The translations under genes were made by a program, and so were the position numbers. From Collinsella sp. An7 (GTDB lineage: Bacteria > Actinomycetota > Coriobacteriia > Coriobacteriales > Coriobacteriaceae), in NCBI RefSeq assembly GCF_002159335.1, contig NZ_NFHP01000002.1:248001-312000 (forward strand): a DNA stretch of 64,000 nt. Direction: 5' to 3'. Shown here in pieces: positions 28,794 to 33,648 of this stretch. Within the stretch, counting starts at the first letter, position 1; every line of letters begins with the position of its first letter. Below the pieces are notes generated by a model. That model was not told the DNA's origin and ran no database searches. It saw only the letters and a list, made by a program, of their open reading frames with translations.

Positions 28794-28985
28794 ATCGATC
28801 GCACATCCCCTCTCTCGCAGCCGCCGCACAGCGGGCCGGGGCTCGCAGCGCCCCCATCCGTCCATGCGCTCGTCACACGTGCACTACGGCAATGGTAATA
28901 CGATTCGTCGCCCCCCGGGCGTAACCAATGTGCTGGCGCCGAGCGGCCGGGAACCCGCACAGCGAGGCATCGCCAGAGAACCGCT

Positions 28986-29486
28986 TTAGCGCTTCTTGTG
29001 CGGCCACTTTTTCGCCGGCGCCTCCTCGGCCTGCCGGGCGCGCATCCCGCGCACCTCGCCGGAGAACTCCTCCCCCGCCTTCGTGAACCCGTCCATCTTG
29101 CGGCTCACCTTGCCTGCGTGCGCCTCGGCCCTCTTCTTGCCCTCGACGGCGGCCTCGGCGCGCTTTTGGCGGTTGAGCTCCTCGAGATTTACGCCCGCCT
29201 CGCCCATGAGCGCCTCGACGTTCTTCTTGGCGTTGGTGGTCCCCACCTTGAGCACCACGGACATGAGCGCACCCAGCACGAGCGCCACCACGCCCACGAT
29301 GCCCCACCCGGCGCCAAAGCCGCCGTAGAACCCGCCGTAACCCAGCAGGAAGCCGACCGCCACGAGAGAGTACCCCAGGCGCAGCCACACGTTCAGCCGC
29401 TGGATGGCATCGGTCTGCAGGCGCGCCTCGCGAATGAAGTCGTCGCGCGTCCAGCGGGAGGTGTCGAGGGGGTTGAGCTTGGCCAT
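28986..29486 (-). CDS. small two-helix membrane protein with basic coiled tail
   Basis: 166 residues from the ATG at 29486 (GAGGAGA). After 30 polar residues two hydrophobic helices (about 36-56, GYSLVAVGFLLGYGGFYGGF, and 60-82, IVGVVALVLGALMSVVLKVG) are joined by a tight turn. The C-terminal 85 residues are Lys/Arg/Glu-rich and helical, probably cytosolic. I do not recognise the family. The gene stands alone. Confidence 0.7.
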   Translation of the reverse strand: MAKLNPLDTSRWTRDDFIREARLQTDAIQRLNVWLRLGYSLVAVGFLLGYGGFYGGFGAGWGIVGVVALVLGALMSVVLKVGTTNAKKNVEALMGEAGVNLEELNRQKRAEAAVEGKKRAEAHAGKVSRKMDGFTKAGEEFSGEVRGMRARQAEEAPAKKWPHKKR

Positions 29487-29607
29487 GATGCGTCTCCTCA
29501 CGCGGGAAACCGATAATGAAACGATACACGTAAAACAAGGAAGGGGCTGCGGAACAGAGCGCCCGCAGCCCCTCGATGCGATCACGAAAGCACGGCAGCG
29601 CCTTGCG

Positions 29608-29823
29608 TTACGCCCCGGCCGTTGCGATGGTCGCCGCGCCGAAGAAGCCGATCACCGAGCCCACGAAGGCGACCACAAGCAGGATGAGCATCGTGATGAT
29701 GGGGCTGACCTTCTTCTTGGACATGAGCCACCAGCACAGCAGGGTGAAGATCAGGGGCAGCAGCTTGGGGAAGATGCCGTCGAGCGTGCCCTGGAGCGTG
29801 CCGCCGCCGGGTCCGCGCCCCAC
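29608..29823 (-). pseudogene. C-terminal remnant of a mannose-family PTS IID subunit
   Basis: The last 65 codons (TLQGTLDGIFPKLLPLIFTL ... KKKVSPIITMLILLVVAFVG) match the C-terminal end of PTS IID proteins of the mannose/fructose/sorbose class: the conserved LD.IFP.LLPL segment and the KKKVSP turn between two helices. At about 29800 the homology stops and the DNA continues as a HAD hydrolase in another frame. A GTG at 29823 could start a 71-residue peptide, but no ribosome site supports it. The rest of the about 280-residue protein is absent. Confidence 0.75.
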
Positions 29824-30320
29824 AGCTCACAGAGGGCGCGCACCGCGTGAGCCTTGTTGGTGCCCCGCGGCATCACCTCGATGAGGATGTTCGAGGAGCG
29901 CATGACGGCGAGCTCAGGAAAGCGCCCGCGCAGCTCGCCCTCGATGCCCACCGTCTGGGCGGGATCGCAGATGAGCAGGAGCTTCTGCACCTCGTCGTGC
30001 GCGATGGACGCGATGTCGCCCTCGCGCGCCTCGGCCATCACGATGCGCTCCTCGTTTCTGAGGCGCTCGTCGTCCTTGCGCGGCGAGACCCAGTCCTCGA
30101 AGGCGTAGGCGCTCCACGTGAGGTCGAACCCCCGCCGCTCGATGAACTCGACCACGTCCTGCGCGGTCTTTTTGCTAAAGCCGTGATGGTAGACAACGGA
30201 GCGGTCCCGGTCCAGGACAACGCCGCCGCTGTAGGTGACCACCGGGCACGCGATGTCGTTCTGCTCGAGCATGGGGTAGGTACCTGTGATACCGCGCGCC
30301 GTGACGATCACGAACGGCAG
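29811..30320 (-). pseudogene. middle part of a Cof-type HAD phosphatase
   Basis: 170 codons read as LPFVIVTARGITGTYPMLEQ through a typical cap domain to NILIEVMPRGTNKAHAVRAL. These are motif II, the C2 cap and the Lys-region equivalent of sugar-phosphate HAD enzymes. Both ends are missing: no DxDGT nucleophile motif at the start and no GDxxND metal motif at the end. It cannot be active. The left end joins the PTS IID remnant and the right end joins the UTRA remnant within four bases. Confidence 0.8.
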
Positions 30321-30323
30321 GCG

Positions 30324-30473
30324 GCGCTCTTCGGCCTCGACGCCGGCGCCCCCGCCTTCCGCATCACGCGCGTCACCTACGACGCCAACGAGCGCCCCTT
30401 CGAACTCACCGTCACCCTCGCCCCCGGAGACCGCAACAGTTACGAGCTCTCCTCCCCGAACGGCCTCGCATAG
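30324..30473 (+). pseudogene. C-terminal remnant of a GntR/UTRA regulator
   Basis: 49 codons on the plus strand (GAPAFRITRVTYDANERPFE, then LTVTLAPGDRNSYEL, ending at 30473) match the last strand and helix of UTRA ligand-binding domains, where the pattern is a hydrophobic-Arg-x-TY-D then an acidic tail with GDR. No DNA-binding domain is present. The remnant starts four bases from the end of the HAD fragment, which is on the other strand. Confidence 0.7.
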
Positions 30474-30534
30474 CCAACAAGTCCGCACGTCCTGAGCCTG
30501 GCTCCGATTTATGCCAACGGCTCCGCATAACAAA

Positions 30535-30614
30535 GGGCCGGGCGCAACCCCGGAGGGTGTTTCCCGCAGCCGCAAAGCGGCGAGGACCACACCCGAAGGG
30601 GTTGCGCCCGGCCC
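30535..30614 (-). ncRNA. structured repeat element, copy 1
   Basis: Outer 17-bp perfect stem (30535-30551 with 30598-30614), then an inner helix GGGTGT/ACACCC and a 4-bp CCGC/GCGG tip. On the minus strand the sides of the internal part read TGGTCCTCG and CTGCGGGAAAC, which recur in the copies at 37794 and 38242. It starts 28 bp past the ATPase stop in the same direction, so it may end or stabilise that mRNA. It has no T tract. Confidence 0.6.
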
Positions 30615-30641
30615 GGTCAGGTCGAAGCGTGTAGCGCGCCC

Positions 30642-33326
30642 TTACGCGTCCTTCTCCACCGAACGCATGATGGCCTTGTAGACCTCCATGAGCGGGATGA
30701 TGAGGAACGCAAGACCCAGTGCAGAGGCAAGCGCCACCGGCGGCAGCTCCATGAAGCCGAACATCTCGGCCAAGAACGGCACCTCGACCACGATGACCGT
30801 CAGGATGAGCGCGAGCACCGCGGCACCCCAGAGCCACATGTTCTGCTTCTTCATGGTGAAGAGCGACTGACGGCGGCTGCGCATGTTAAAGCAGTGGAAG
30901 ATCTCGACCATGGAAAGCGTAATAAACGCCATGGTCACACCCTCTTCGTCGGCGGTACCGGCAATCATGTCGGCGATGTTGATATAGCCCATGTCGAAGT
31001 ACACGCCCACAAAGAAGCTCGCGAGCACAAGCGCGGTGATGATGATGCCCTGCACCACGATATCGAGGCCCATGCCGCCAGCGAAGACGCCGTCCTTGGC
31101 GTTACGCGGCTTGCGCTTCATGATGTCGCCCTCGGCGCCTTCCATACCGAGCGCAAGCGCCGGGAAGCAGTCCGTCACGAGGTTGATCCACAGCAGCTGC
31201 ACCGGCTGGAAGATGGTAAAGCCCACGAGCGTGGCCACAAAGACCGAGAGCACCTCGGCGATGTTGGCCGAGAGCAGGAACTGGATGACCTTGCGAATGT
31301 TGTCGTAGATGCGACGACCCTCTTCCACCGCGTTGATGATGGTGGCGAAGTTGTCGTCGGCGAGCACCATGTCGGCCACGTTCTTGGTGACGTCGGTACC
31401 GGTGATACCCATGCCGACGCCGATGTCGGCGCGCTTGATGGAGGGCGCGTCGTTAACGCCGTCGCCCGTCATGGCGACGATGTTGCCGCGGCTCTTCCAA
31501 GCGTCGACGATGCGCGCCTTGTGCTCGGGCTGGACGCGCGCATAGACGCTGTACTCGGTGACCTTCTCGTGGAAGTCCTCGTCGGAGATCTTGTCGAGCT
31601 CGGCGCCGGTGATGGCGTGGCCCGCGCCGTCGCCCTCGAGGATGCCGAGGTTCTTGGCGATGGCCACGGCGGTATCGATGTGGTCGCCCGTGATCATGAC
31701 CGGGCGGATGCCGGCCTCGCGGGCCTCGGCGATGGCGGGTGCCACCTCGGGGCGCTCGGGGTCGATCATGCCGGAGAGACCGCAGAACACGAGGTCGTGC
31801 TCGAGCGCCTCAGGGCTGCAGTCGGCGGGCACCTCGTCCCAGGTGCGGCTCGCGAGCGCCAGCACGCGCAGGGCCTCATCGGCCATGGCCTTGTTGGCGG
31901 CCAGGAGCTCGGCCTTGCGCTCGGCCGTGAGCGGGACAATCGCATCGCCGTCGTAGATCTGCGTGCACAGGTCGAGCACCACGTCGGGCGCGCCCTTGGT
32001 GTACTGCTCAAAGGTGCCGTCGGCCTCTTCCACAACAACCGACATCATCTTGCGGCTCGAGTCAAAGGGCGCCTCGCCCACACGCGGGTGCTCGACCTCG
32101 AGCCCTTTCATGCCGGCCTTGGCGGCGTCGTTAACGAGCGCGCACTCGGTGGGCTCGCCCTGGGCCTCGCCGGCCTCCTCGTCCCACTTGGCGTCGGAGC
32201 AGAGCGCCATGCCGGCGAGGAACTTCTCCTCGGGCGCAGCGAGCACGTGCTTGACCACGGTCATCTTGTTCTGGGTGAGAGTGCCGGTCTTGTCCGAGCA
32301 GATGACGGTCGTGCAGCCGAGGGTCTCGACCGCCGTCATCTTGCGGATGATGGCCTGACGCTTGGCCATCTTGGTGACGCCCATCGAGAGCACGATCGTG
32401 ACCACGGCCACGAGGCCCTCGGGGATGGCGGCGACGGCGAGCGACACGGCGACCATAAAGGTGTCGAGGATCATCTCGGGGTTCTGGCCGAGCTCGCTGC
32501 CGTGGCGGATGAGGTCGACGGCAAAGATGACCACGCAGATGCCGAGCACGAGCTTGGTGAGGATACCCGAGAGCTCGTTGAGCTTGATCTGCAGCGGCGT
32601 GAGCTCCTTCTTGGCGGTGGTGAGGGCGTCGGCGATCTTGCCCATCTCGGTCTTCATGCCGGTCGCGACCACCACGGCCATACCGCGTCCGTACACCACG
32701 GTGGAGCCCATGTAGCACATGTTCTTGCGGTCGCCGAGCGGCACGTCGTCGGAGTCGGGGGAAAGCTCGATGGCCTGCACGTGCTTCTCCACCGGCACGG
32801 ACTCGCCGGTGAGGGCGGCCTCCTCGATCTTCATGCTGGCGCTCTCGAGCACGCGGCAGTCGGCCGGCACCGAGTCGCCCGCCTCGAGCACCACGATGTC
32901 GCCGGGCACGAGCTCAGACGAGGGCAGGTGCACGAGCTTGCCGTCGCGGATCACCTTGGACTGCGCGGCGCTCATCTGCTGCAGGGCCTCGAGAGCCTGC
33001 TCGCTCTTGGCCTCCTGCACCACACCGAGCACCGAGTTGATGATAACGACGGCCAGGATGATGATGACATCGGCCCACTCGGGCTCGCCCTGGATGGTGC
33101 CCGTGATGGCCGAGATAGCCGCCGCCACGATGAGCATGATGACCATCGGGTCGGCCATCTGCTCAAAGAACCGCTTCCACAGCGGCGTCTTCTCCTCCTC
33201 CTTGAGCTTGTTGGGACCCACGGCCGCCAGGCGCGACGCCGCCTCCGCGGAGCTAAGACCCATCTCGGCGCCCACAGATTGCTCCGCAAGCACCTCCTCA
33301 GCCGAAGCCAAGTATTCCTTTGACAT
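30642..33326 (-). CDS. P-type cation-transporting ATPase, calcium (SERCA-like) type
   Basis: 894 residues from the ATG at 33326 (AGGAGGGG). Order: N-terminal cation-ATPase domain; first helices (about 58-98); actuator TGESVPVEK at 173; IPEGLVAVVT in M4 near 301; phosphorylation motif DKTGTLT at 345-351; nucleotide domain; hinge TGDGVNDAPSIKRADIG near 610; six C-terminal helices. The M4 PEGL and overall layout match Ca2+-exporting ATPases of Gram-positive bacteria. It should pump Ca2+ or a related cation out of the cell. The DKTGT and hinge motifs are intact. Stands alone, followed by structured element 1. Confidence 0.92.
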   Translation of the reverse strand: MSKEYLASAEEVLAEQSVGAEMGLSSAEAASRLAAVGPNKLKEEEKTPLWKRFFEQMADPMVIMLIVAAAISAITGTIQGEPEWADVIIILAVVIINSVLGVVQEAKSEQALEALQQMSAAQSKVIRDGKLVHLPSSELVPGDIVVLEAGDSVPADCRVLESASMKIEEAALTGESVPVEKHVQAIELSPDSDDVPLGDRKNMCYMGSTVVYGRGMAVVVATGMKTEMGKIADALTTAKKELTPLQIKLNELSGILTKLVLGICVVIFAVDLIRHGSELGQNPEMILDTFMVAVSLAVAAIPEGLVAVVTIVLSMGVTKMAKRQAIIRKMTAVETLGCTTVICSDKTGTLTQNKMTVVKHVLAAPEEKFLAGMALCSDAKWDEEAGEAQGEPTECALVNDAAKAGMKGLEVEHPRVGEAPFDSSRKMMSVVVEEADGTFEQYTKGAPDVVLDLCTQIYDGDAIVPLTAERKAELLAANKAMADEALRVLALASRTWDEVPADCSPEALEHDLVFCGLSGMIDPERPEVAPAIAEAREAGIRPVMITGDHIDTAVAIAKNLGILEGDGAGHAITGAELDKISDEDFHEKVTEYSVYARVQPEHKARIVDAWKSRGNIVAMTGDGVNDAPSIKRADIGVGMGITGTDVTKNVADMVLADDNFATIINAVEEGRRIYDNIRKVIQFLLSANIAEVLSVFVATLVGFTIFQPVQLLWINLVTDCFPALALGMEGAEGDIMKRKPRNAKDGVFAGGMGLDIVVQGIIITALVLASFFVGVYFDMGYINIADMIAGTADEEGVTMAFITLSMVEIFHCFNMRSRRQSLFTMKKQNMWLWGAAVLALILTVIVVEVPFLAEMFGFMELPPVALASALGLAFLIIPLMEVYKAIMRSVEKDA

Positions 33327-33648
33327 ACGTTCGACCCCTCCTGGGTGCATCAAGCCGCTCGGCAGATTGACGCCCGATCATAATTCCCCAGGGGTCGGGG
33401 CAAGGGCTCGTCAAGGCTGCCATGCCGAGAGGCAGCTGACAATAGCGACCATGATAGCGCAAATTGGGGGCGTGCTCCGCCGCGGGTGGCAATTCAAGAC
33501 GCAGGCCCCTCTTAAGACTTAGTTAATGGAAAAATCTTCCAAAATCGGCGTGCGGTAGAAATTTCTCGGTTATCGGTTTTTTGTTGACGCTATAATGACG
33601 CGCGGATTCAGATGAGACGTAAGGCGACGTAGAACCAAGGAGGTTCGC
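33327..33648. other. divergent promoter region, ATPase/pyk
   Basis: The gap holds a TATGAT (minus, 33382-33377) as a possible ATPase -10, with TTGCCC 15 bases upstream, and the pyk promoter. AT content is raised at 33520-33600. No gene is seen. Confidence 0.4.
33568..33596 (+). promoter_or_regulatory. pyk promoter
   Basis: A perfect TATAAT at 33591-33596 lies 53 bp before the pyk start in an AT-rich patch. The hexamer 17 bases before it is weak; a TTGACG at 33584 is too close to be its -35. The -10 is confident, the -35 is not. Confidence 0.6.

Follow-up and report, generated by a model that had tools for sequence, protein, structure and literature searches.

Bacterial pseudogenes and deletional bias are a topic of the literature (e.g., PMC2916853). 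Scars left by the deletion of bacterial operons consist of truncated genes joined end to end, the missing parts being absent from the genome, and both traits are shared by the locus described here, which lies in Collinsella sp. An7 within a window of 64,000 nucleotides (the whole stretch of DNA that was analysed). It does not differ in kind from the known operon scars and, with three genes from both strands abutting in 866 bp, is a tidy example. Regarding its origin, the remnants are parts of a Man/Fru/Sor PTS operon with a HAD-IIB phosphatase and a GntR-UTRA regulator, intact in a relative (G007), whereas the window lacks IIA, IIB, IIC and MarR and holds IID, HAD and GntR as fragments. We consider it very probable that this stretch is the deletion scar of a mannose-family PTS operon. 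The scar is ordinary gene loss, and the companion gene that it orphaned is the more interesting part of the locus. In the accessible parts of the literature on illegitimate recombination and pseudogenes, on PTS loss in Collinsella and on deletional bias, the locus is not described; it represents a clear, datable case of an operon lost step by step in gut Coriobacteriia.

The window belongs to a 407-kb contig of the An7 genome (G000; 2.37 Mb, 18 contigs, rated 99.73% complete), in which the genes at the site succeed each other as RsgA, a DUF1349 gene, a two-helix membrane-protein gene, three remnants, a P-type ATPase and pyruvate kinase (enzyme names not derived from Pfam or NCBIfam matches were assigned by reading the sequences). 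The ATPase gene (30642-33353, minus strand) is intact and forms the right-hand anchor of the site, the neighbouring gene of relatives being 90-94% identical. Pfam searches and comparison with G007 showed that positions 29608-30473 comprise, with zero spacers, the C-terminus of IID (minus strand), the middle of a Cof-type HAD protein (minus strand) and the C-terminus of a UTRA protein (plus strand), the identities and order being those that the preliminary description of this DNA had proposed from the letters alone; Pfam and the G007 proteins confirmed all three. None of the old reading frames (IID, HAD and UTRA) contains an in-frame stop.

The IID remnant (29608-29811, minus strand) is the C-terminal 67 of about 284 residues and is all that the window retains of the PTS domains. 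It matches EIID-AGA profile positions 213-265 of 265 (Pfam, 29608-29823, minus strand, E 3.7e-17), residues 218-274 of the 284-residue G007 protein at 81%, and the G007 DNA with 84% identity over 29624-29811 (BLASTN). The HAD remnant (Cof-type, HAD-IIB; 29812-30317, minus strand) corresponds to about residues 42-214 of 275. It aligns with Hydrolase_3 positions 27-203 of 255 (Pfam, E 4.3e-22, in the frame 29751-30590 of the minus strand), with TIGR00099 at E 1.9e-18, under the curated cut-off of this NCBIfam model, and with residues 39-216 of the 275-residue G007 protein at 83%, the DNA identity being 78%. Both of its ends are lacking, the N-terminal DxDGT and the C-terminal GDSHND of the G007 protein falling in the deleted parts. 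We take DxDGT and, at the C-terminus, GDxxND to be the catalytic stretches of HAD-IIB (Cof-type) phosphatases, and an active enzyme with both is not found in the window. The GntR-UTRA remnant (30318-30473, plus strand) is limited to the C-terminal 51 residues, the helix-turn-helix being gone, and matches UTRA positions 99-139 of 141 (Pfam, E 5.2e-8, in the frame 29847-30473 of the plus strand). This frame aligns with residues 178-253 of the 253-residue G007 GntR protein at 70%, a stretch that takes in foreign sequence left of the joint, and from 30318 to the ATPase the DNA is 90% identical to that of G007. An active GntR-UTRA repressor, with a winged helix-turn-helix and a full UTRA domain, is likewise not found in the window. 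The three remnants presumably yield nothing useful today.

In a DNA search of all nine genus genomes, the same four blocks were found in the same order in G007, an uncultured Collinsella (L032), spread over about 5.5 kb; from the IID stop to the GntR stop, 5,537 bp in this genome stand against 866 bp in the window. The G007 order is RsgA, two-helix gene, IID, IIC, IIB, IIA, MarR and HAD (all minus strand), followed by GntR-UTRA (plus), P-type ATPase (minus) and pyruvate kinase (plus). Pfam assigns its cluster to EII-Sor (IIC), PTSIIB_sorb, EIIA-man, MarR, Hydrolase_3 and GntR with UTRA, IID being PF03613, so that IIA-man, IIB-sorb, EII-Sor and EIID, which together denote a mannose-family PTS, are all present. 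This is the intact cluster that the preliminary description had suggested looking for between the two-helix gene and the ATPase, with the order and orientation of the remnants, and its proposal of a mannose-family PTS locus as common source holds, the fragments matching this one locus and not unrelated ones. It had also named a fused arrangement expressed as a gene in relatives as contrary evidence; among the nine genomes searched, only the window's own shows the fusion. G007 is the one of eight same-genus relatives with an intact cluster at the same place, and the remnants are colinear with it and sharply joined. When the HAD piece was searched against named genomes, two loci came up: that of G007 and, in an Atopobiaceae bacterium, one with a weak match of 41% (L048), which was not used.

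The missing genes have not moved elsewhere. Indeed, no orthologue of the cluster's IIC was found in the window's genome at E 1e-30, and a DNA search of this genome with a 6.1-kb stretch of G007 gave, besides the four blocks of the scar, five short weak pieces, all within other IID or IIC genes and none of them the missing cluster. With no copy elsewhere in the genome, relocation was ruled out. A phage or plasmid origin was likewise dismissed, as BLASTN of positions 29500-30650 against phage and plasmid collections gave no match. The genome retains three full IID genes from other clusters, so the loss concerned one transporter among several of this type: the lineage gave up one sugar route and kept three other IID-type transporters.

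Base-level comparison with G007 locates both joints closely. At the first (IID/HAD, 29806-29812), IID matches up to 29811 and the HAD match starts at 29806, the BLASTN pieces overlapping over 29806-29811; at the second (HAD/UTRA, 30317-30318), the HAD match ends at 30317 and unmixed UTRA sequence begins at 30318, the two sides sharing one base. These overlaps (at most 6 bases and 1 base) are estimates measured against G007, and not against a parental sequence of the same species; in G004 and G008 (and in G001 for IID), matching ends at the same bases as in G007. The remnants thus abut as the preliminary description had seen, with zero spacer between IID and HAD in place of about 20 bases, and with the HAD/UTRA joint a few bases to the left of the 30320-30324 it had given. 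By G007 coordinates, the first joint lacks 3,788 bp, comprising most of IID, IIC, IIB, IIA, MarR and the 3' end of HAD, and the second about 882 bp, comprising the 5' end of HAD, the divergent promoter region and GntR to about residue 201.

The ancestor would have carried, as G007 does, IID-IIC-IIB-IIA-MarR-HAD reading leftward and GntR-UTRA reading rightward between the two-helix gene and the ATPase. A deletion of about 3.8 kb would have fused IID to HAD and a separate one of about 0.88 kb HAD to UTRA, taking the divergent promoter region, which makes at least two separate deletions. The transporter was presumably dispensable. Repeated deletions had been proposed before, as the collapse of a whole operon; two of them do explain the difference, but the two-helix companion gene survives intact. 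Short repeats at the joints, which the preliminary description had suggested looking for, do not exceed chance, and long direct repeats are not apparent. In G007, the longest words shared by the two sides of each joint were of 5 bases within 15 bases either side (a length attained by 215 of 396 random pairs of places) and of 6 and 7 bases within 40 bases (attained by 307 and 139 of 398 random pairs), no longer than at random places. Illegitimate events with short or no homology, such as replication slippage or alternative end-joining, are thus the likely origin of the joints. No Ku gene was found in the window's genome by a search whose control was detected in Bacillus subtilis, which counts against Ku-dependent end-joining today, and this route was rejected.

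With respect to the history of the cluster, the tree of the ATPase gene (nine rows) places G000 as sister to G003, G006 and G007 with support 99/99. G003 and G006, nearer to G007 than G000 is by this gene, lack the cluster at the site: past the ATPase, G003 has an 83-bp repeat and then RsgA, and G006 a set of other genes spanning 6.6 kb. In G002, where the contig ends at this point, the ATPase is directly followed by the start of the DUF1349 gene; G008 and G004 carry the cluster at other genome places and G001 at a contig end, on a different contig from the ATPase. Among 65 family genomes, IIC was found in 17 (E 1e-100) and HAD in 9, the window's fragment counted (E 1e-60). The cluster thus appears to be readily moved or lost, being elsewhere or absent in relatives and patchy in the family. 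Since G003 and G006 branch with G007 and lack it here, its presence in the common ancestor has to be set against separate arrivals in the G000 and G007 lineages, and independent gain in these two is conceivable.

The interval between RsgA and the ATPase is a variable site in the genus, holding zinc-ribbon and surface-like proteins in G006 (L037 7223-13848), an AAA-type ATPase-like gene in G004 (L040 6360-7926; types read by eye in both) and nothing in G003. Of note, the G004 cluster (L033 7075-11217) contains, between its PTS genes and HAD, a 1,380-residue GH32 (fructan hydrolase-type) protein with a FIVAR repeat and a probable cell-wall anchor (read by eye). This gene hints at fructose-type sugars, which the cluster's transporter may take up.

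Other origins for the fused stretch can be envisaged. Pieces gathered from different places, or having arrived already broken, would fit the patchiness of the cluster just described and the variability of the RsgA-ATPase interval, but their order, strands and both outer neighbours agree with the intact G007 locus and more events would be needed than the two of stepwise deletion, which makes this origin quite improbable. We give very little credence to the idea that the joints are assembly errors or result from mixing, in an organism that has an intact cluster: the genome is indeed split over 18 contigs, but none of these carries the missing genes, in an assembly of such completeness, and both joints preserve order and orientation well within a single long contig.

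It is just as improbable that the stretch has become a new expressed chimeric gene, either as the frame of 279 residues at 29751-30590 (minus strand) or as that of 208 residues at 29847-30473 (plus strand). Both are open, the first traversing the HAD piece and the second ending in the UTRA piece, and the HAD part differs from G007 mostly by silent changes (dN/dS 0.05). However, these frames cross the antisense of the adjoining pieces and, for the longer one, also that of the terminator-like repeat, and in a window so rich in G+C long antisense frames are nothing unusual (105 frames of at least 40 residues in 13 kb). Moreover, a search of 28900-30700 gave no sigma-70-like promoter, the joint is seen in no relative among the nine genomes, and a low dN/dS of HAD is what one would expect of pieces that were parts of intact genes for the greater part of their history.

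Such a history, in which the deletion scar is a late event, is compatible with the substitution counts, which are small and mixed. For IID, silent and replacing changes stand at 9:10, 4:6 and 5:6 on the G000 side and at 5:2, 10:4 and 11:4 on the G007 side with G008, G004 and G001 as respective outgroups, all small counts, with a stronger leaning to replacing changes on the G000 side. For HAD on the G000 side they are mixed, mostly silent with G008 (27:9) and less so with G004 (15:12), and for UTRA 4:1. As a measure of relaxed selection since the deletions, these counts point in no single direction. Dating by the lack of stops was set aside as weak, since about 6% of simulations at a neutral divergence of 0.15 per site (substitutions only, without indels) also keep zero stops. 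Between G000 and G007, dS amounts to 1.6 for HAD, 1.8 for the two-helix gene and 0.37 for the ATPase. As HAD also exceeds IID between G007 and G008 (1.27 and 0.53), this excess was read as different codon constraint and was not used as a historical signal.

Just past the ATPase stop codon lies an 83-bp imperfect palindrome (30532-30614) that is dispersed in the genus and may be a REP-like element and a terminator at once, or one of the two. Copies 94-95% alike occur in relatives (L032 4199-4281 and 10305-10387; L036 6212-6294; L037 7141-7223 and 13848-13927), and a pair brackets the two-helix gene and the cluster in G007 and another gene set in G006. Given the near-identical flanking copies in G007, one recombination could take out two-helix gene and cluster together. 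In the window, repeat-mediated loss was rejected: the two-helix gene is kept, there is one repeat copy and the joints lie outside it. Nor does G003 agree with a simple crossover of these G007 copies, as the sequence to the left of its single copy resembles G006 and not G007.

The comparison of scar and intact locus also revealed a small unnamed membrane protein tied to this transporter. Its gene (28986-29486, minus strand, 166 residues), the companion of the lost operon, is intact in the window and separated from IID by a spacer with a terminator-like hairpin (29541-29574, minus strand; 13-pair stem, T-rich tail), a strong hairpin being present in this spacer in all five genomes compared. Homologues lie directly beyond IID in G007, G008, G004 and G001, and the alignment of five sequences (A1) has 30 invariant columns. 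Within the family, the gene occurs in 18 of 65 genomes, namely the 17 with IIC and the window's own, always lying some 1 kb past IIC on the IIC strand. In a class sample of 296 genomes (cut-offs E 1e-6 for the two-helix protein and E 1e-90 for IIC, the two tables being matched by eye), it was found in 59, IIC in 58 and both in 57, in every case with roughly 0.9-1.4 kb between the two on one contig and one strand. The two-helix gene occurs without IIC in G000 and G255, and IIC without the two-helix gene in G228, although the status of G255 and G228 could shift with stricter or laxer cut-offs.

The two-helix gene was thus part of the PTS operon, 57 of 58 IIC carriers having it beyond IID, and not the mere landmark that the preliminary description had taken it for. 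The protein matches no Pfam model at E 0.001 and NCBIfam models only at chance-level E-values, and it is not described in the accessible parts of the literature on accessory proteins of mannose PTS. Compared with G007, the window's gene differs mainly by silent changes (dN/dS 0.11, with a dS of 1.8 that is near saturation). Our guess is that the protein is an accessory part of the transporter. Chances seem even that it is a near-obligate accessory of one Coriobacteriia mannose-family PTS lineage so far unrecognised, and that the window is a natural knock-out, the transporter gone and the accessory gene kept, in which it perhaps serves another of the genome's mannose-family transporters. G000 offers a genome for examining what the protein does when this transporter is absent. 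In four genomes of another genus (G024, G031, G043 and G047), the two-helix profile match contains one TAG at a similar place, which may simply be where a shorter protein normally ends.
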